A stretch of 51,038 nt of DNA from Patescibacteria group bacterium. Its GTDB lineage: Bacteria > Patescibacteriota > Minisyncoccia > GCA-002772825. The translations under genes and the position numbers were made by a program. Positions 22,381 through 32,085 of this stretch are shown here, one piece after another; position 1 is the first letter of the stretch, and each line of letters starts with the position of its first letter. The stretch spans positions 1 through 51,038 of the forward strand of contig JANLHB010000034.1 in the NCBI GenBank assembly GCA_024654625.1, given 5' to 3'. Below the pieces are notes generated by a model. The model was not told the origin of the DNA, made no database searches, and saw only the letters and a program-made list of their open reading frames with translations.

Positions 22381-22653
22381 ATGTGCCTTGCCACGCCAAG
22401 TAAAGTTATAAAGATAGATGGAGAGTGGGTAGAAGTAGAGTCCATGGACCACACCCACCGAGCCAATATCAGCCTCCTTAGAAACAAAGGGGTTAATTTG
22501 GGCGACTATCTTCTAATCCACGGTGACCTGGCTATCCAGAAGCTACCTGAAGATGAAGCGCTGAAAATCCTTGAGATGATAAAGACAATGCCTTCTCACG
22601 AGCATGAAGATTCTCACACACACGAACATGAACATATTTGCAACTGCGAATAA
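22381..22653 (+). CDS. hypC: HypC/HupF hydrogenase maturation chaperone with His/Cys-rich tail
   Basis: HypC carries iron with its CO and CN ligands and delivers it, with HypD, to the [NiFe] large subunit. Residues 1-70 match the family: N-terminal MCL with essential Cys2, a small beta barrel, and GDYLLIH with His47 at the conserved place. The usual PG after MCL.. is PS. The tail (residues 71-90) is unusual: six His in alternation with acidic residues, then CNC, a likely metal-binding extension like those more often seen in HypB. It is followed after 9 bases by the HypC-HydE fusion, so the two HypC domains are co-transcribed. Confidence 0.9.
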   Translation: MCLATPSKVIKIDGEWVEVESMDHTHRANISLLRNKGVNLGDYLLIHGDLAIQKLPEDEALKILEMIKTMPSHEHEDSHTHEHEHICNCE

Positions 22654-22662
22654 CTAATTAAA

Positions 22663-23946
22663 ATGTGCTTAACTATCCCCGGTAAAATCATAAAAATAGA
22701 TGGAAATATTGCTTCTGTAAAACGCTATGATGGAATAAAAGAAGTTAATATCTCTACTACCCCCGGCGTGAAGAAGGGAGACTGGCTTCTTGCTACCGTA
22801 GGACTAGCAGTAAAAAAGATAAATGAAAAAGATGCAAAAGAGATTATAGACCTCTTGGAATCTCACAGACTGATAAGAGAAGACAAATTATCTAAAAAAT
22901 TCAAAGAAATCATTCTTAACTCAAAAAAGGGGGAACTTAAAAAAGACGAGATAGAATATTTACTCTCGCTTGATAACAAAGACGAAATAGAATCATTATT
23001 CAGCGAAGCGGATGTCGTAAGAAAGACAAGCCTAAAAGATTTCATCTGTCTTCATGGGATAATAGAATTCTCAAATTACTGCGGGAATAATTGCTTGTAT
23101 TGCGGAGTAAGAGCTGAGAATAGAAATTTAACAAGGTTCCGCATGAGTCCTGAAGAGGTGGTAGCGACAGCCGATGAAGCCGTAAACAAGAAGGGATATA
23201 AAATGCTAGTGCTTCAGTCAGGAATGGACTTGGGCTACAGAGACGAGGAGATTGAGAGAATAGTAAAAGGAATTAAAGAAAGATGCCGAGTCTTCGTCTT
23301 TCTTTCAGTGGGAGAGAGATCTCCCGAAGCATATGAAAAATTCAAGAAGGCTGGCGCCGACGGAGTGCTTTTCCGCTTTGAGACAACTAATCCTAGCTTA
23401 TATGAAAAGTATCATCCGGGCGGTGTGAATAAAGGAAATAAAGAAAATAGATTTGAGTTACTGAAAAAGATGAAAGAGATGGGTTACTACATAGCCTCCG
23501 GTCCTCTCATAGGACTGCCGGGGCAGACTATAAGTGATTTAGCTAATGACATAATCTTTATGAAAGATTTTAAAGTAAACATGGTATCAATGGGGCCATT
23601 TATACCATCAAAAGAAACTCCGCTTAAAGATGAGGAAAAAGGAGATATGGAAATGGCTTTAAAAATGATAGCTGTCTCTCGCCTTGTTATGCCTCGCTCA
23701 AGAATAGTGGTGGCAAGTTCTCTTGAAACATTAGACAAAGAAGGAAGGAAAAAGGGTCTTCAATCTGGAGGCAATTCAATAATGTTTAATCTGACACCGG
23801 CTAAATATAGAGAGGATTATAAAATATATCCAGGCAAGAAGAGCCTCCCCGAGGAATCTTGGGAGAAATATGCTCTATTCTCCGGAGAAGAAGACAGCTA
23901 CCAGATGATTGAAGACGAGATAAGAAGTGGATTATCCGCTAGATAA
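22663..23946 (+). CDS. hydE: HypC-HydE fusion protein
   Basis: Residues 1-70 are a second HypC domain (MCLTIPGKI start with Cys2, GDWLLATVGLAV), but the conserved His is Thr45. Residues about 75-427 are HydE, the radical-SAM enzyme that works on the Fe(CO)2CN precursor of the [FeFe] H-cluster. HydE marks are GIIEFSNYCGNNCLYCG (C140, C144, C147 for the 4Fe-4S cluster), LQSGMD, FETTNP, GLPGQTISDL, GPFIPSKETPL, LKMIAVSRL and NLTPAKYREDYKIYPGK. The extra C-terminal CX7CX2C cluster of some HydE is absent. BioB or PylB fits less well, as the HydE blocks match throughout. It sits between hypC and hydG. Confidence 0.9.
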   Translation: MCLTIPGKIIKIDGNIASVKRYDGIKEVNISTTPGVKKGDWLLATVGLAVKKINEKDAKEIIDLLESHRLIREDKLSKKFKEIILNSKKGELKKDEIEYLLSLDNKDEIESLFSEADVVRKTSLKDFICLHGIIEFSNYCGNNCLYCGVRAENRNLTRFRMSPEEVVATADEAVNKKGYKMLVLQSGMDLGYRDEEIERIVKGIKERCRVFVFLSVGERSPEAYEKFKKAGADGVLFRFETTNPSLYEKYHPGGVNKGNKENRFELLKKMKEMGYYIASGPLIGLPGQTISDLANDIIFMKDFKVNMVSMGPFIPSKETPLKDEEKGDMEMALKMIAVSRLVMPRSRIVVASSLETLDKEGRKKGLQSGGNSIMFNLTPAKYREDYKIYPGKKSLPEESWEKYALFSGEEDSYQMIEDEIRSGLSAR

Positions 23947-23952
23947 TAACAT

Positions 23953-25329
23953 ATGACAAAAGTTACAGAAATAATAAACGAAAAGAAAATTTTAAACTTG
24001 CTAAAAACCGTATTAGAACCCGAAAAGAATACCGTATTAAAAATACTGAAAAAAGCTTCAAAGAAAAAAGGCTTAAATCTCAAAGATGTCGCTTGTCTTC
24101 TAAATACAAAAGATAAGAAACTTGTGACTGAAATGCACAAGACGGCTGGCCAGATAAAACAAGATATCTACGGTGAGAGATTAGTTCTCTTTGCTCCTCT
24201 TTACATATCAAGCTTTTGTATAAACGACTGCGAGTATTGCGGTTTCCACAGACGCAATACTGACGAGCGGAAAAAGCTTTCTACAAAAGAGATTGAGCAA
24301 GAAGTAAAAGTCCTCTTAGATATGGGACACAAGAGACTTCTCTTGGAATTCGGGGAACACCCCCTCAACAAAATAGAAGATGTCGTTAATGCTATAGATA
24401 CTATTTATAAAACTAAATCAAAAAACGGGGAGATAAGGAGAGTAAATGTTAACATAGCGGCTACCTCAGTAGAGGATTATAAAAAATTAAAAAAAATCGG
24501 CATAGGGACATACCAGCTATTTCAAGAAACTTATCACCGCGAAACCTATGACAAAATGCACGACGGACCAAAAGCTAACTACGAAAGACAGCTCTTTGCT
24601 CACGACAAAGCATTTGAAGCGGGGATTGATGATGTTGGACTAGGCGTCCTATTCGGGCTTTATAACTATAAATTTGAAGTTTTAAGCTTATTGTCACACG
24701 CCAAGTATTTAGACAAGAAATACGGCGTCGGACCGCATACCTTTTCTGTTCCTCGCTTCCAACCGGCCCCAACCGTCAAGATGAAAACTCCTTATAAGGT
24801 TAATAATGATGATTTTCTGAAGATAATAGCCATCCTTAGAATGGCAGTACCTTACACCGGCATTATTATCTCAACAAGAGAGACGCCAGAAATACGATCT
24901 AAAGCATTTGAAATAGGTATTTCCCAAGCAAGTTCCGGCTCCATAACAACCCCTGGTGGCTACAGTGAAAAAGAAAATAGATTAAAACAATTTGAGTTGG
25001 GCGACCACAGAGATATTAATCAATTCCTAATAAGCGCCATTAGACAAGATCTATTGCCTAGTTTCTGCACCGCCTGCTACAGAAAAAAACGCACGGGAAA
25101 AGCTTTTATGGACTTGGCCAAGCCCGGCGATATCCAGAACTTCTGCAGGCCAAACGCCATCTTAACTTTCAAAGAATATCTTGAAGATTACGCTCAGAGT
25201 GAAGTTAGAACAGAAGGAGAGAAATTGATGGTTAGATATTTAGAGCAGATCCCGAATGAAAATATAAAAAAAGAAACCAAAAAGAGGCTAAAAGCTATAG
25301 AGCAAGGAAAGAGGGACCTTTATTTTTAA
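23953..25329 (+). CDS. hydG: HydG, tyrosine lyase making CO and cyanide
   Basis: Radical-SAM enzyme that splits tyrosine into p-cresol, CO and CN- and builds an Fe(CO)2(CN) unit. The SAM cluster motif is C89-x3-C93-x2-C96. The HydG-specific CX2CX22C motif (C372, C375, C398) for the second, dangler-iron cluster is complete, which separates it from ThiH. At 458 residues it is full length. It follows the HypC-HydE gene by 6 bases and its stop overlaps the stop of the convergent NiFe large subunit gene. No HydF or [FeFe] hydrogenase is in the window, so its client may be the neighbouring [NiFe] enzyme (inference). Confidence 0.93.
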   Translation: MTKVTEIINEKKILNLLKTVLEPEKNTVLKILKKASKKKGLNLKDVACLLNTKDKKLVTEMHKTAGQIKQDIYGERLVLFAPLYISSFCINDCEYCGFHRRNTDERKKLSTKEIEQEVKVLLDMGHKRLLLEFGEHPLNKIEDVVNAIDTIYKTKSKNGEIRRVNVNIAATSVEDYKKLKKIGIGTYQLFQETYHRETYDKMHDGPKANYERQLFAHDKAFEAGIDDVGLGVLFGLYNYKFEVLSLLSHAKYLDKKYGVGPHTFSVPRFQPAPTVKMKTPYKVNNDDFLKIIAILRMAVPYTGIIISTRETPEIRSKAFEIGISQASSGSITTPGGYSEKENRLKQFELGDHRDINQFLISAIRQDLLPSFCTACYRKKRTGKAFMDLAKPGDIQNFCRPNAILTFKEYLEDYAQSEVRTEGEKLMVRYLEQIPNENIKKETKKRLKAIEQGKRDLYF

Positions 25330-26552
25330 TGCACGGAGCAAGTGATGCAAGGATCATAGGCGCGAATTAACATCTCCATCAGGTGTTCAAGCTCTTCGTG
25401 AGACTTCTCGCTATGCTGAGCTAACAAGGCCTCAGCGGTATTTTCCATAGAAGTGAGGTTCTGCACTGTCGGCGTAATAATGTTAGCGTATTTTATAATG
25501 CCATCTTTATCAAAATGAACTTCATTATAAAGACCTCCTCGTGGCGCCTCTACCGCGCCTATACCAACAAGAGATGGATTCTTCGAAGGAGAGGCTACCC
25601 TATCGTCAATATCTTTTTTCAATAACTTCCCTAAGATAGAAACCGCTTCTTCAAGTTCAAAAAGCGTCTCTATGACTTGTGCCAAATTATTGTGATACGG
25701 ATTTTTAAAGTCTAGCCCGAAAAAAGAAATGTCTCTGTCATAAAAACTCTTATGATAAAGTCGGGCCAGAGAGCCCACCATATAAACATTGCCCTTATAC
25801 GAACCGAATTTGGCAGTGGAATATTTCTTCACCTCCTCTTCAATATTCTTCTTATAATCTTTAATACTGAAAGATTCTCTTTTATTTGAAAGCACTTTGC
25901 CATCTTTCTGAGCCAAAAGTTCAAGATCAACCTGCAGCTCAGGATATTCAAGAGTAGCGAAGAAGTCTGCCAGTGCCTTCGCTTTCGGGATCGCTATTTT
26001 TACTTTCTCCAATAAACCGCTAAGCTCTTCTTTGGTCGGCGTTTTATGAAAACCGCCCACCGTAGTTCGCGTAGGATGGACATTGCGTCCCGCCACCACA
26101 TAAGCAATCTCATCTCCAAGCTCTTTAAGAGAAAGTGCAAGTTCAAATTTCTTCGGGTCCTTAAAATCAAGCTCTGTAATCCTATCTATCCCTATATAAT
26201 CCGGCAAAGCCAAAAAGACTGCGTGGAGTACGTGACTCTGCACATTTTGTCCAACCTGCATAAGCCGGCGAAGCAATTTCGCAGTCTCTGTAATCTCCAC
26301 CCCTAGAGCATCTTCAGTGGCGGCAAGCGAAGCCAAGTTATGGGCAATAGGGCAGACACCGCAAATCCTCGGGGTGATCCAATGCATCTCATCGGCCGTT
26401 CTTCCAACCAAGATCCCTTCAAACAAGCGCTCTCCCTCATGGACATTAAGCTCCACTTTCCCCTTCCGCCAATCAATAGCCAAAGAGCCGTGCCCTTCAA
26501 TCTTGGCAATATATTCATCGGCTCTTTTTTTTACTAGATTCTTTTCAGACAT
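25326..26552 (-). CDS. hyhL: [NiFe] hydrogenase large subunit, group 3b-type (HyhL)
   Basis: Holds the NiFe(CN)2CO site that interconverts H2 and protons. The L1 motif is RICGVCPIAH (C64, C67), and the L2 motif DPCITCSVH has C402 and C405. The protein stops right after this His. Most large subunits carry a further peptide removed by a protease after metal insertion; here none exists. At 408 residues length is normal for group 3b. A hairpin with a T-run lies 15 bases upstream of the ATG, after murC, so expression may be separate from the rest of the cluster or need read-through. Confidence 0.95.
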   Translation of the reverse strand: MSEKNLVKKRADEYIAKIEGHGSLAIDWRKGKVELNVHEGERLFEGILVGRTADEMHWITPRICGVCPIAHNLASLAATEDALGVEITETAKLLRRLMQVGQNVQSHVLHAVFLALPDYIGIDRITELDFKDPKKFELALSLKELGDEIAYVVAGRNVHPTRTTVGGFHKTPTKEELSGLLEKVKIAIPKAKALADFFATLEYPELQVDLELLAQKDGKVLSNKRESFSIKDYKKNIEEEVKKYSTAKFGSYKGNVYMVGSLARLYHKSFYDRDISFFGLDFKNPYHNNLAQVIETLFELEEAVSILGKLLKKDIDDRVASPSKNPSLVGIGAVEAPRGGLYNEVHFDKDGIIKYANIITPTVQNLTSMENTAEALLAQHSEKSHEELEHLMEMLIRAYDPCITCSVH

Positions 26553-26657: not shown

Positions 26658-27965
26658 TTAATTTAATAATAACAAACTTTCGCCTATTTTAAAAACGTCC
26701 CCCGCGCCGATAGTGATAATAACATCGCCTTTTTGAGCATTTTTAATCAAAAATTTTTCAATTTTACCAAAAGGACCGATATATTGGGTATTCCTGTTAT
26801 ATTTCCTGATTTTCTCCGCCAAATCTTTCCCGCTGATTGTTTTATCTTTTTTCTCCCGCGCCGCGTAAATATCGGTAATTATAACTTCATCGGCACTATT
26901 GAAGCTCTTGGCAAATTCGGTGAGAAGTAATTTTGTCCTAGAGTAAAGATGAGGCTGGAAGACGACCCATACTTTCTTCTTTTTGAAATAATCTCTAGCG
27001 CCTTTGAGTGTCGTTTGTATCTCTGTCGGATGATGAGCATAATCATCATATATAGAAACACCATTAATTTTTCCCTTATACTCAAATCTTCGCCAAGTTC
27101 CTTTAAAATTATTAAGTGCTTCCACTATTAGAGGATTTTTCACCTTCAATATCTGCGCCACAGCCATAGCTGCTTTAGCGTTATCTATATTATGATTCCC
27201 CGGCACCTTGAGATTTAATCTAGTTGATATTTTGGAATAATCAACAATCTTACAGCCCGTCTTTTTTGCCTCATTGATAATCGGCTTCATATTTTTACCT
27301 GACACACCACAAACAAAATGCCCGTCTTTACCTAATTTTTTTACAAGAGAAATAAAAGCGCTTTGAATGTCTCGTAGGTCCTTATAATAATCCAAGTGAT
27401 CTTTATCAATATTTGTGATAACTATAATCTTCGGCGAAAGATTAAGAAAAGCGCGCCTATACTCACACGCCTCCGTGAGAAAATATTTTGACTTTCCGAA
27501 AACGAAATTACTTCCGCCCTCTTTCAATATACTCCCCACGACAACAGTAGGATCCACTTTTGCATCACTTAGCGCCTTGGCAATCATCGCTGTGGTTGTC
27601 GTCTTGCCGTGCGTACCGGAGACAGCAATGGTGTATTTTTCTCCGGAGACAAACCCGAGCATCTCAGGGTAACTTATGGCAAAAATCCCCATCTTCTTTG
27701 CCTTTTTAAGTTCAGGGTTGTTGGGAGATATAGCTGTGGTATAGACAACTAAATCTGTATTATCAGGAAGATTAGGGGATTTATGCCCTATCTTTATATT
27801 CATTCCCGCTTTCTTAAGATCGGCAAGGATCGCCGAGCCATGGAGATCCGAACCGCTCACCGCTTTCCCTTCCCTCTTCATCATCCTGGCAATAGCCGAG
27901 ACACCGATACCCCCTATACCGATAAAGTGAACGCTTTTTATATTATCCAATAGATTTTTTTTCAT
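26658..27965 (-). CDS. murC: UDP-N-acetylmuramate--L-alanine ligase
   Basis: Adds L-Ala to UDP-MurNAc in peptidoglycan precursor synthesis, using ATP. Residues 11-22 have the GIGGIGVSAIAR nucleotide-sugar motif, SGTHGKTTTTAM is the P-loop, ACEYRRAFL, TNIDKDHLDYY and DDYAHHPTEI follow, as in MurC. At 435 residues it is full length. It follows murD by 19 bases, inside the hydrogenase gene row, an uncommon place. It is not related to hydrogenase function as far as known. Confidence 0.95.
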   Translation of the reverse strand: MKKNLLDNIKSVHFIGIGGIGVSAIARMMKREGKAVSGSDLHGSAILADLKKAGMNIKIGHKSPNLPDNTDLVVYTTAISPNNPELKKAKKMGIFAISYPEMLGFVSGEKYTIAVSGTHGKTTTTAMIAKALSDAKVDPTVVVGSILKEGGSNFVFGKSKYFLTEACEYRRAFLNLSPKIIVITNIDKDHLDYYKDLRDIQSAFISLVKKLGKDGHFVCGVSGKNMKPIINEAKKTGCKIVDYSKISTRLNLKVPGNHNIDNAKAAMAVAQILKVKNPLIVEALNNFKGTWRRFEYKGKINGVSIYDDYAHHPTEIQTTLKGARDYFKKKKVWVVFQPHLYSRTKLLLTEFAKSFNSADEVIITDIYAAREKKDKTISGKDLAEKIRKYNRNTQYIGPFGKIEKFLIKNAQKGDVIITIGAGDVFKIGESLLLLN

Positions 27966-27984
27966 TTTTAATGTTGTAATCTTT

Positions 27985-29367
27985 TTACTTTAACTTCCTT
28001 ACCTCTCTTACAAACTGTTTGCCCCTGTCAAATTCATTCTTAAACAAACCAAAGCTTGCCGCGCCCGGAGAAAGCAACACTATGTCCCCTTTCTTGGAAA
28101 GACTCCTCGCCAATCTCACCGCCTCCTTCATTTTGTGCACCACCGAGTGGTGCACATTTATCTCTTTTAGAAGCTTATCTGTGGCAGTGCCAGGGAAAAT
28201 GATTAACTCTTTTACTTCTTTTTTTATAGTTTTCGCAAATTCTTTATAATCAAGATTTTTATCAACTCCTCCGGCAATCAGAATTATTCTTTTCTTCTTC
28301 TCCTTGAAAGCCTTCAGGGCAGACACCGCTCCGTCCGGATTCGTCGCAGTCGTGTCATTATAATACTTTATGCCCTTTATTTCACGCACCAGCTCAAGCC
28401 TATCTTTAACCCCCTTAAAATCTCGCAAGACCATTCTAATATCACTATTCTTCACACCGAAAATTTTTGCCGCACAAACTCCAGCTAGCACATTCTCCAA
28501 GTTATGATCGCCGGGAACCTGGATGTCGCTAATTTTCACCACTTTTTCTTCTTTTCCGTCTACCTTGAATACAATGTCTCTACCTTCAATAAAAATACCG
28601 TCCTTACCATTAAAATGTTTTTTAGAAAACCAAAAAATCCTGCTCTTTATACCTTTGCCCGCTTTCTTAGACTCTTTATCATCCTTATTTAGAATAAGGA
28701 AATCTTGCGGTCCTTGAAATTTAAAAATAATCTTTTTATCATTATGGTAATCCTCTAAACTCTTATACTTATCAAGATGGTCTGACTTTAGATTAGTAAT
28801 AACCGCAATATTAGGACTCTTCTTTGCCGGCAAAAGACCTCTTAAAAGCCAGCTTGAGAATTCCGCCACAACAACATCTTCTTTTTTTATCTTATCCATA
28901 TACTTAAGCGGAGAAACACCTATATTTCCGCAAAGAATAGCCTTATTCTTCTTTTTAATAAATTCGTAAACTAAAGAAGTGGTCGTACTCTTGCCCTTAC
29001 TCCCAGTAACGCCTATAAGGAAATTGTCATTGTTATCTAAAAATAGACTCCAGTCATTGATGATAGGGATATTATTTTCTCTGGCAATTTTAAGATAAAC
29101 CGAAGAATCAGGAACTGAGGGATTTTGAAAAATCAGATCCGCCCTCTGGAAATCCTTTTCCCTATGTCCACCAAAAAAGTATTGTATATTCTTAAACTTA
29201 TTCAATTTTTTAATCTGATGTCTTAGATCTTCTTCTTTCTTAAGATCTGTCACGAGGACACGGGCGCCGACCCGCGCAAAAAACAAAGCGGCAGATATGC
29301 CGCTGCCGTCTCCATACCCCCCCAAGCCCATCACGACAACTCTCTTATTTTTAAATTTATTTTCCAT
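27985..29367 (-). CDS. murD: UDP-N-acetylmuramoylalanine--D-glutamate ligase
   Basis: Adds D-Glu to UDP-MurNAc-L-Ala. The N-terminal domain has VVVMGLGGYGDGSG, the P-loop is GVTGSKGKSTTTSL, AEFSSWLL, TNLKSDHLDKY and YYNDTTATNPD are the family's central motifs, and LLSPGAASFGLFKNEFDRG is the MurD C-terminal signature. Its start overlaps the hyhS end by 11 bases, so the two are translationally coupled. This puts cell-wall synthesis inside the hydrogenase operon. Confidence 0.95.
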   Translation of the reverse strand: MENKFKNKRVVVMGLGGYGDGSGISAALFFARVGARVLVTDLKKEEDLRHQIKKLNKFKNIQYFFGGHREKDFQRADLIFQNPSVPDSSVYLKIARENNIPIINDWSLFLDNNDNFLIGVTGSKGKSTTTSLVYEFIKKKNKAILCGNIGVSPLKYMDKIKKEDVVVAEFSSWLLRGLLPAKKSPNIAVITNLKSDHLDKYKSLEDYHNDKKIIFKFQGPQDFLILNKDDKESKKAGKGIKSRIFWFSKKHFNGKDGIFIEGRDIVFKVDGKEEKVVKISDIQVPGDHNLENVLAGVCAAKIFGVKNSDIRMVLRDFKGVKDRLELVREIKGIKYYNDTTATNPDGAVSALKAFKEKKKRIILIAGGVDKNLDYKEFAKTIKKEVKELIIFPGTATDKLLKEINVHHSVVHKMKEAVRLARSLSKKGDIVLLSPGAASFGLFKNEFDRGKQFVREVRKLK

Positions 29368-30145
29368 TTTTCTTTTTCTTCATTTCTTTTTCAAACACTT
29401 CTCTATATTCTTTAATCTTGTTAAAAAACATAGAAAGATGCCTATCTATCTCTTTATTGGCGGCAAACTTCTTTAATATCTTTACCAGTGCCGGTATATT
29501 AGCCTCTTCCCTGGGGCCAAAACATCCATAACAAGGGCTTCCTCCGGAGATGCACACCGCCTTACACCCACCTTGAGTTATAGGACCAAAGCATATCTTA
29601 TCTTCAAGTAAACGACAAGGATTCTCTCTTTCCTTACATTCAAAGCAAACCGAGTAACCATGATAACGGGGGGTCTTCCCGGCTAACAGCTCTTCAAGAG
29701 CTCTCATTATTTCGTCTTCTTCTACAGGACAACCATGTATCATATAATCAACCTTCACATAAGCTGAAAGAGGGAGTGCATCAATCCCTTTAGGCTTATA
29801 CCCTTCACCATAAATTTTCTTATACCATTTTTCTCTATCTTTTTTATCCATTATCCCCGGTATGCCGGCTATAGAAGCGCACGCGCCCAAAGCGACAATC
29901 ACTTTTGATTTTTCGCGGAGCTCTACAAGAAGGTCAATCTCGTCTTTGGTGACAGGTGTTCCTTCTATAATAGTGACGTCATATGGACCGTCTTCAAAAT
30001 GCTCTTGACCTAGCCTCCAATTCACGATATTAAATCTCTTCTCCAGATCCAAAAGCTTCTCTTTAATAGAAACGAGTTTTACTTCACATCCTTCGCAGTC
30101 GGTGAAGTCGTATATGGCTATTTTTGGTTTTGCTAAATTTTTCAT
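29357..30145 (-). CDS. hyhS: [NiFe] hydrogenase small subunit (HyhS)
   Basis: Carries the electron-transfer FeS clusters between the NiFe site and the FAD subunit. Proximal-cluster Cys residues are seen in DCEGCEVKL (about 17-20), GACAS and HGCPVEEDE; further Cys sites in VCFECKERENPC, GGCKAVC and CYGCFGPREE fit the medial and distal clusters. At 262 residues it matches sulfhydrogenase delta subunits. No twin-arginine signal is present, so the enzyme is cytoplasmic. It overlaps murD by 11 bases and is separated from hyhG by the bulged hairpin at 30156-30231. Confidence 0.93.
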   Translation of the reverse strand: MKNLAKPKIAIYDFTDCEGCEVKLVSIKEKLLDLEKRFNIVNWRLGQEHFEDGPYDVTIIEGTPVTKDEIDLLVELREKSKVIVALGACASIAGIPGIMDKKDREKWYKKIYGEGYKPKGIDALPLSAYVKVDYMIHGCPVEEDEIMRALEELLAGKTPRYHGYSVCFECKERENPCRLLEDKICFGPITQGGCKAVCISGGSPCYGCFGPREEANIPALVKILKKFAANKEIDRHLSMFFNKIKEYREVFEKEMKKKKNGK

Positions 30146-30243: not shown

Positions 30244-31074
30244 TCATTTATCCCACGCTTTATCTATCTCATCTAAATTGAATACTGGTCCGTCAACGCA
30301 TACATATTTATCCCCGCAGACACAATGCTGACACCGGCCTACCCCGCACTGCATCTTTCTCTCCATACTTACGAAAATTCTCCTATCAGGTATGCCCATT
30401 GGATTAAGTAAGTTCTCTATGGCGTCAACCATCGGACCAGGCCCACACATCGCAACCACTGTGTTAGCCGAATTTATCTTCAGGTGTTCCAAGCAATCAG
30501 TCACAAAACCGGTATTACCGTCCCAATTACAAGCCGGCTTATCAACAGTCAAAGTAACATTTATCCTCCTCTTCCATTCATTCATCCTTTCCTTCATTAA
30601 AAGATCTTCCGGAGTAGTGGCGCCATATAGAAGATTAACTTCTCCAAAATCGCTCCTATTTGAAATAATATATTCAACAAGCGAAGCTATTGGCGGAATA
30701 CCACAGCCGCCTGTTATTAAGATAACATCTTTCTCGCGAAAAAAATCTATCGGATACCCATTGCCATAAGGTCCTCTTAGTGTCAGTTCATCTCCCTCTT
30801 CAAGAGAGTGCAAAGCGCTTGTAACTTGGCCGACTTTTCTAACAACAACCTCTATACACGAAGAATCATTTGGGTGAGAAGCCGGACCAAACGGCGACTC
30901 TCCATACCCCCACAAACCAGCGAGCACAAATTGACCCGGCACAAATACGAGTCCATTTTGATTTAAAGGGAAAGGGCTTCCATCTAACTTAGCCATACGG
31001 AAAAGCTTAACGTCACCTGAATATATTTCAATTTTTTGAATTTTTACCGGTATCGGCTCGTAAATATTTTGCAT
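30244..31074 (-). CDS. hyhG: hydrogenase FAD/NAD(P)-binding subunit (HyhG)
   Basis: Electron-transfer subunit that exchanges electrons with NAD(P)(H). Residues about 60-130 form the ferredoxin-reductase FAD domain (GQFVLAGL, GPYGNGYP), residues 130-235 the NAD(P) domain (VILITGGCGIPPIASLV, LLYGATTPEDLLM, AMCGPGPMVDA), and the C-terminus has the Cys cluster MQCGVGRCQHCVCGDKYVC for a 2Fe-2S centre. At 276 residues it is a complete sulfhydrogenase gamma subunit. With hyhB, hyhS and hyhL it makes a group-3b NAD(P)-linked enzyme. Confidence 0.92.
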   Translation of the reverse strand: MQNIYEPIPVKIQKIEIYSGDVKLFRMAKLDGSPFPLNQNGLVFVPGQFVLAGLWGYGESPFGPASHPNDSSCIEVVVRKVGQVTSALHSLEEGDELTLRGPYGNGYPIDFFREKDVILITGGCGIPPIASLVEYIISNRSDFGEVNLLYGATTPEDLLMKERMNEWKRRINVTLTVDKPACNWDGNTGFVTDCLEHLKINSANTVVAMCGPGPMVDAIENLLNPMGIPDRRIFVSMERKMQCGVGRCQHCVCGDKYVCVDGPVFNLDEIDKAWDK

Positions 31075-31119
31075 AATTATTATTTATTTAAGATGAAAAC
31101 GGATAAAAATCTTGTGAAT

Positions 31120-32085
31120 TTAATTTTTAATTTTTTTAAACCTATTCATTATCTCCAAAAGAACTTCCTCTATATCAATCCGCGCCGGACAATATTTCTT
31201 ACATCTACCACAGGTGACACACTGGGATTTGCCAAATTCAAGATAACCTCTCACAAATTTATGATAAAACCAATTATAATACCTCTCTTTCACTCCTTTA
31301 TGAAAACTATGCCCCGGTCGCCCTATTCCTCCGGCAACCTTAGCGAACTCGGGCAGAGTGCAAGCATCCCACTTACGACAACGCCTACATTCGTCTCCGG
31401 AAAGATCCATTTCATCTTCTACAGAAAAACAATGGCAAAGTGGGCAAACATAAGTGCAGATCCCGCAATTAAGGCATTCCCCCGCCAGCTTATCCCAAAT
31501 CTCCGGGTAACCTTGCCAAGACCACTTCACAGCATCATGGAGAAGCTCAGGGTCGGACAAAAGTCCATGAAGCTCTACCATCGTCTTGCTCTTAGAAATT
31601 TTATATTCAACTCTATCTTTTTCTTCCTTACCTGCCGGCAGGCAAGTAAAAGGAAAATCCAATCTCTTTAAAAACTTCTCCCCTTTTTTTGTTACGACAA
31701 CGACTTCATACTCATCGTTCTTTAATTTCCTCAAGATAATATCTCCCCCTGGAGCAACATTGAATTCTTTCCCAGTCAAGCCTATTAAAATTGATTTGTC
31801 TCTTTTGTTAAAATAAAAATCATCCCGCGCCGGCTTTTGCATTATCTCATCAAGATAAGTAATAGCCTCTAAGTCCTTAAGTGAAATTCCAAAAAGAATA
31901 AAATCTTTAGGCGCCTTTTGGCTTGAGAGACTTTTACTTTTTTTATCAAATGTAAAAGTTATCTCTCTTGAAGGAAAAAAATATCGCTTCGGAGGCAAAA
32001 TACTTTCACGAACATCAAATAATTGCGCCTGTTTTCCGAGCTTATCTAAAAAAATATTTAGTCGTTTTTCTTCTAAAATCTTCAT
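31120..32085 (-). CDS. hyhB: hydrogenase 4Fe-4S subunit (HyhB)
   Basis: The beta subunit of group-3b hydrogenases, with ferredoxin-like clusters. The C-terminal half has CLNCGICTYVCPLCHC and CVTCGRCKKYCPAR, each able to hold a 4Fe-4S cluster, plus CRRCRKWDAC. At residues 147-153 the stretch TCLPAGK is coded by a CCTGCCGGCAGG palindrome (31627-31646) and looks like an in-frame insertion in a linker between the two halves. The frame stays open, so function may be kept. It is the first gene of the hydrogenase row. Confidence 0.92.
   Translation of the reverse strand: MKILEEKRLNIFLDKLGKQAQLFDVRESILPPKRYFFPSREITFTFDKKSKSLSSQKAPKDFILFGISLKDLEAITYLDEIMQKPARDDFYFNKRDKSILIGLTGKEFNVAPGGDIILRKLKNDEYEVVVVTKKGEKFLKRLDFPFTCLPAGKEEKDRVEYKISKSKTMVELHGLLSDPELLHDAVKWSWQGYPEIWDKLAGECLNCGICTYVCPLCHCFSVEDEMDLSGDECRRCRKWDACTLPEFAKVAGGIGRPGHSFHKGVKERYYNWFYHKFVRGYLEFGKSQCVTCGRCKKYCPARIDIEEVLLEIMNRFKKIKN
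31627..31646. repeat. LPAG-coding palindrome inserted in hyhB
   Basis: CTTACCTGCCGGCAGGCAAG, a near-perfect 20-bp palindrome, coding LPAG on the minus strand. The same core is intergenic at 22247-22266. Confidence 0.75.

Follow-up and report, generated by a model that had tools for sequence, protein, structure and literature searches.

The window (the whole stretch of DNA analysed, 51,038 nt) encodes a protein in which a HypC domain is joined to a HydE-type radical-SAM domain, and its gene lies beside those of a stand-alone HypC, a HydG and a [NiFe] hydrogenase. Comparative sequence analysis indicates that this HypC-HydE protein, together with HydG where the latter is present, probably assembles the Fe(CO)/(CN) moiety of the [NiFe] site and replaces HypD, HypE and HypF. 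Its parts belong to known families; their combination, serving [NiFe] enzymes without HypD and HypF, is not described in the open-access literature searched.

The HypC-HydE fusion and the adjacent hydrogenase genes

The following features were identified in the window:

22381..22653, plus strand: stand-alone HypC, 90 aa (PF01455, 61.8 bits; TIGR00074, 52.0 bits)
22663..23946, plus strand: HypC-HydE fusion, a single uninterrupted frame of 427 aa
22663..22857, plus strand: HypC domain at the N-terminus of this protein (residues 1-65; PF01455), with Cys2 kept and the conserved His replaced by Thr45
22924..23871, plus strand: HydE radical-SAM domain of the fusion (TIGR03956), altered at C129, H131, F239, V350 and E355
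23953..25329, plus strand: HydG, 458 aa (TIGR03955, 547.7 bits, cut-off 312; PDB 4wcx, E 2e-160)
25326..26552, minus strand: [NiFe] hydrogenase large subunit (LSU), group 3b type (PF00374; motifs RICGVC and DPCITCSVH)
29357..30145, minus strand: [NiFe] hydrogenase small subunit (PF01058; NF040831, 178 bits, under the equivalog cut-off)
30244..31074, minus strand: hydrogenase gamma subunit, FAD/NAD(P) binding (Pfam and NCBIfam profiles)
31120..32085, minus strand: hydrogenase beta subunit, 4Fe-4S (Pfam and NCBIfam profiles)

The stand-alone HypC gene is located 9 bases 5′ of the fusion gene and the HydG gene 6 bases 3′ of it, while the HydG and LSU genes are convergent and overlap by 4 bases.

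The initial annotation of this DNA had proposed that HypC and HydE share one open frame, which was borne out by profile searches. Residues 1-65 matched HupF_HypC (PF01455) with 61.2 bits (Pfam; cut-off 28.5) and the protein matched the HypC profile TIGR00074 with 56.3 bits (NCBIfam; cut-off 48), the HypC domain scoring 65.3 bits in the genome search; the HydE profile TIGR03956 covered residues 88-403 with 290.2 bits (NCBIfam; cut-off 254.6). Pfam placed Radical_SAM at residues 134-295 and BATS at 313-375. Among solved structures, T. maritima HydE was closest to residues 80-398 (E 6e-79), and residues 1-64 matched T. kodakarensis HypC (2z1c, E 2e-11). Each motif named in the annotation is found at its place, i.e. 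MCLTIPGKI with Cys2, Thr45 in the place of the conserved His, C140-x3-C144-x2-C147, GLPGQTI, GPFIP and YPGK.

The HydE part thus combines a profile score over the cut-off with the CxxxCxxC motif (C140/C144/C147), and the HypC part has the profile match, fold and Cys2 of its family and lacks only the conserved His. Thr45 occupies the position of that residue (His51 of E. coli HypC), five residues after the Asp of the GD motif, where other fusions mostly carry Gln, Ala or Thr. Cys2 is kept in the fusion of the window and in 78 of 80 related loci (see below), the remaining two being devoid of the N-terminal part. The annotation would have been overturned by a different fold of the N-terminal part; the AlphaFold2 model (pLDDT 91.8, pTM 0.91; confident over almost the full chain) shows, over residues 1-65, a HypC-like barrel of five strands with a helix, and after it the radical-SAM barrel. 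The best Foldseek matches of the model were HydE structures (3iiz at 2.1 Å; complex-B-bound 8qmk and 7o1o). An assembly join or chance frame was ruled out by the occurrence of the fusion in six more genomes of the phylum and in the 78 loci.

The stand-alone HypC keeps both Cys2 and the conserved His, and has a His-rich C-terminal tail, which may possibly bind Ni. The HydG of the window contains the radical-SAM CxxxCxxC and the C-terminal CxxCx22C cluster motifs, features by which it is predicted to be a tyrosine lyase with a CO/CN-forming auxiliary cluster. The LSU matches P. furiosus SHI alpha (a sulfhydrogenase of 3b type) and its relatives (E about 1e-63) and keeps all four metal cysteines. 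DPCITCSVH forms its last residues and therefore there is nothing C-terminal to cleave. The LSU and small-subunit genes are separated by two genes reading as murC and murD (26658-29367), and the two have the same place in a genome of the same genus (G001, locus L079).

Distribution of the fusion and of other maturation genes

The genome containing the window (G000; CPR/Patescibacteria) has a size of 831 kb, with completeness scored at 100% and contamination at 2.5%. Searches of this genome with curated profiles detected no HypD, HydA or DUF6390, and no HypF or HydF over the cut-off, so the full complement of hypA-F plus hydA/hydF that would have spoken against the initial annotation is absent from a genome scored as complete. 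A weak HypF match in the window was recognized as TsaD.

A HydE-only profile, applied to 380 genomes of the phylum, revealed six further HypC-HydE fusions (in G266, G214, G115, G215, G217 and G312). All seven fusion genomes contain a [NiFe] LSU, and all but G214 a second HypC. Whole-genome profile searches within the phylum found HypD, DUF6390 and over-cut-off HypF or HydF in none of the seven. HydG is present in three (G000, G266 and G214); genome searches did not find it in G115, G215, G217 and G312 (94-100% complete; fusion loci L072, L073, L074 and L076), and therefore it cannot supply ligands there. [FeFe] HydA was found in one fusion genome, G312, where HydA-type genes are located at C2:3040-3897 and 30987-31652; this genome is without HydG and without HydF over the cut-off.

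HypD-bearing genomes (G055, G031, G069, G076, G024 and G149) contain neither the fusion nor DUF6390. G149, which has HypD and HypF and lacks HydA, encodes a HydE-like radical SAM protein with a methyltransferase-looking C-terminal part (L075:3263-5128). In G065, HypC and a [NiFe] LSU were found, and no HypD, NiFe-type HydE or DUF6390.

The initial annotation had called for a search for single chains of HypC and HydE type in other genomes, and such proteins proved to be widespread. When 84,980 species genomes were scanned, 149 relatives were obtained; 80 loci, found by the patterns C[ILV]HGI[IV]EF or MC[LY]TIP[GS][KQ][IV], were kept. The HypC part is in frame with HydE in 78 of them, which represent about 20 lineages of Bacteria and Archaea, the exceptions being L160 (cut by a contig end) and L207 (HydE alone; the same locus as G015). 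According to the record titles, single ones of which may be misbinned because nearly all records are metagenome-assembled, the lineages include CPR, Planctomycetota (Kuenenia, Scalindua), Omnitrophota, Elusimicrobiota, Margulisiibacteriota, Nitrospirota, Spirochaetota, Myxococcota, Pseudomonadota, Methylomirabilota, Chlamydiota, Firestoneibacteriota and several DPANN archaea.

HydG is encoded in 52 of the 80 fetched stretches, in 47 of them directly beside the fusion and in the same orientation; in L202 (Nitrospirota) HypC, HydE and HydG form one chain of 943 aa. The HydG homologs adjoining the fusion in L175 and L214 were searched for the C-terminal CxxCx22C motif, which was not found. The stretches also contain LSU (39), small-subunit (30), HycI (20), HypA (20), HypB (9) and HydA (1) genes, the last being an [FeFe] hydrogenase gene near the fusion in L184 (3-1628), the sole case in the set. 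HypD, HypE, HypF and HydF were found in none of the 80 stretches; the E. coli HypD/E/F queries used detect known CPR homologs, HypD and HypE at E 1e-18 or better. The LSUs of these loci keep their Ni/Fe cysteines, and some are group-4-like (PF00346; L169, L191). LSUs with a short C-terminal extension (7-10 aa) are mostly accompanied by HycI in the fetched locus, and CPR LSUs without such an extension have no HycI there.

HydE signature and proposed maturation route

The HydE sequences associated with [NiFe] genes (89) were compared with seven canonical ones, of which plasmid records provided five, a CPR genome one and PDB one. The former are distinguished by C129 (aromatic or His in canonical HydE), H131 (Arg), F239 (His), V350 (Ala/Ser) and E355 (Gly/Ala/Asp), as well as by Leu/Ile/Phe at position 375 (Pro). 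F239 and E355, both outside the search patterns, are near-invariant. The invariance of C129 and H131 in the 80 loci is partly by construction, because the patterns include these positions; free of this bias, both residues occur in 9/9 profile- or protein-found sequences versus 0/7 canonical ones. The HydE domain of the window has C, H, F and E at positions 129, 131, 239 and 355 in place of the [FeFe]-type residues; it retains the radical-SAM cysteines as well as the majority of residues conserved in HydE.

In a phylogenetic tree (quick method), NiFe-associated HydE are placed apart from the canonical proteins (SH-aLRT 98 for the 89 sequences and 90 for canonical HydE). The HydE proteins of G009 and G015, which are not fused, group with the NiFe-associated set, their placement being unsure due to long branches. 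Only three weakly discriminating columns were found for HydG, and CxxCx22C is kept in 49 of 51 sequences. A separate clade of NiFe-associated HydG was not supported (no clean split from the canonical ones; p-AU 0.09). With HydE altered and HydG almost unchanged, the changed member is HydE; transfer of a mononuclear unit to HypC would require a different product from this very member.

Cleavage of tyrosine by HydG to CO and CN− on a dangling iron is established in other systems. In the proposed route HydG, which keeps the needed residues here, would perform this reaction, and the mononuclear Fe-cysteine synthon would move to the HydE domain. The changed pocket of the latter (Cys129, His131, Phe239, Glu355) may skip dimerisation to the [2Fe] unit, so that the mononuclear Fe unit would be handed to Cys2 of the protein's own HypC domain; Cys129 and His131 are possible substitute ligands for HypD Cys41 and HypC His51. 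HypC would then deliver the unit to the LSU, directly or via the stand-alone HypC, and Ni insertion and C-terminal cleavage would proceed as usual by HypA/HypB and HycI, where present. In [FeFe] maturation, HydG makes the [Fe(Cys)(CN)(CO)2] synthon and passes it directly to HydE, which adenosylates and reduces it on the path to the diiron product (PMC12752695). During Fe(CN)2CO assembly the iron is held by HypC Cys2, possibly HypC His51, and HypD Cys41 (PMC12134894).

The annotation's suggestion that a HydE/HydG product is passed via HypC to the neighboring [NiFe] LSU fits all testable data, with two amendments: the arrangement is not a one-off, and the HydG product is not universal. The four fusion genomes without HydG are the main problem for a HydG-based route, and led to the rejection of HydG as a universal partner of the fusion; the chances that it supplies the ligands where present appear somewhat better than even. 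Also counting against replacement is the ligand ratio, since the HydG product has two CO and one CN, and the known [NiFe] site one CO and two CN. A further point against it is the [FeFe] hydrogenase gene near the fusion in L184. It is doubtful that the hydrogenases of this route carry Fe(CO)2(CN), with the HydG synthon inserted unchanged as a mononuclear unit; if they did, this would represent a new variety of [NiFe] active site.

The HydE domain might also have been recruited for another reaction (modifying HypC-bound iron, or forming a ligand from another precursor), with HydG being optional. This is unlikely, but it would account for the retention of the fusion, the LSU and a second HypC in the four HydG-less genomes, as well as for the changes at conserved positions of the HydE pocket; against it are the same-strand adjacency of HydG in 47 of 80 loci, their union in one chain in L202, and the presence of the radical-SAM cysteines together with most of the residues conserved in HydE.

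We consider it very unlikely that a classical Hyp pathway, either divergent or provided by a host or partner cell, matures the enzyme, the HypC-HydE protein being an accessory or storage protein. The genomes of the phylum are reduced and the HypE search was confined to the fetched loci, but the HypD profile, which gives no match in the window's genome, detects HypD in 5 of 86 relatives, and the fusion also accompanies [NiFe] genes in lineages such as Nitrospirota, Omnitrophota and Spirochaetota. Moreover, there is little overlap between the maturation sets: of 25 [NiFe] genomes HypD and HydE occur together in none, and DUF6390 and HydE in one (Fisher p 0.04-0.06, for genomes chosen by their matches and not at random). 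Strict exclusivity of the sets was rejected on account of these p values and this choice of genomes.

Standard [FeFe] maturation by the fusion and HydG, with the HypC part as a by-product, is extremely improbable. By their profile scores both HydE and HydG are [FeFe] maturases, and HydA occurs near the L184 fusion and in G312; however, HydF over the cut-off is missing from all seven fusion genomes and HydA from six, which already largely refutes this explanation, and it also conflicts with the single HydA among 80 loci, whereas [NiFe] LSUs are abundant, and with the separate position of NiFe-associated HydE in the tree. That the hydrogenase is inactive or lacks diatomic ligands, in a decaying locus, has a negligible chance of being true, given the four LSU metal cysteines, the open frames throughout and an arrangement kept in about 20 lineages.

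If [NiFe] maturation by HypC-HydE and HydG is correct, tyrosine-derived CO and CN− on a HypC carrier would answer the anaerobic CO-source question for many uncultured anaerobes, the HydE reaction would be a novel outcome of radical-SAM chemistry, and a compact set of maturation proteins would become available for producing [NiFe] hydrogenases. The presence of hydE/hydG in metagenomes would then be no proof of an [FeFe] hydrogenase.

Relation to a DUF6390 gene set and to known maturation systems

Comparison of the window with G001, from the same genus, revealed an exchange at this locus. The gene order glutaredoxin, HypC, HypC-HydE, HydG, LSU of the window's genome corresponds in G001 to glutaredoxin, HypC, EamA, DUF6390, LSU; EamA and DUF6390 occupy the exact place of the fusion and HydG. 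The LSU and HypC proteins of the two genomes are 92% identical. In profile comparison the C-terminus of DUF6390 aligns with HypC (probability 94.7, E 6e-8), Cys155 being placed onto HypC Cys2 and the stretch GDWVSFHW, with His216, onto the HypC stretch GDYLLIH. The DUF6390 model ends with a barrel and helix in HypC order; HypC 3vyu gave the highest target-normalised TM-score among the matches listed (0.75), with a weak E-value of 0.035. Thus, in two different HypD-less sets, the fusion set and the DUF6390 set, a stand-alone HypC is accompanied by a second HypC-like module that is part of a fused protein.

DUF6390 (PF19927), mostly with the EamA transporter, was observed beside [NiFe] genes at L079:6022-6828 (G001), L080-L087 and L223, and the genomes bearing it in this position are without HypD. 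Judged by sequence, DUF6390 and its partner may possibly constitute a further [NiFe] maturation set.

The HypC-HydE fusion, HydE/HydG serving [NiFe] enzymes, and DUF6390 are undescribed in the open-access literature searched (preprints and most subscription papers lie outside it). Near these 3b hydrogenases, Jaffe et al. 2020 (PMC7304191) noted just hypC homologs. A 2025 review (PMC12134894) holds that the Fe(CN)2CO unit needs HypC to HypF and that the anaerobic CO source is unresolved; the words "radical", "tyrosine" and "FeFe" were not found in its text.

As in the HypA-F pathway (HypC-HypD scaffold, HypE-HypF cyanide donor), the target here is a [NiFe] LSU, Cys2 is present in the fused HypC, the stand-alone HypC has Cys2 and His, and HypA, HypB and HycI occur in many relatives. 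Unlike in that pathway, HypD and over-cut-off HypF are absent from the seven fusion genomes, HypD/E/F lie beside none of the 80 loci, and the fused HypC is without the conserved His. With the HmdB/Hcg route of [Fe]-hydrogenase the present system has in common a HydE-related radical-SAM enzyme, but the fusion scores 80 bits versus an HmdB cut-off of 321. From the HydE-HydF-HydG pathway of [FeFe] hydrogenases it differs in that HydE is fused to HypC, and the window's genome is without HydA and without HydF over the cut-off; yet it shares with this pathway a nearly unchanged HydG, the HydE fold and the radical-SAM cysteines.
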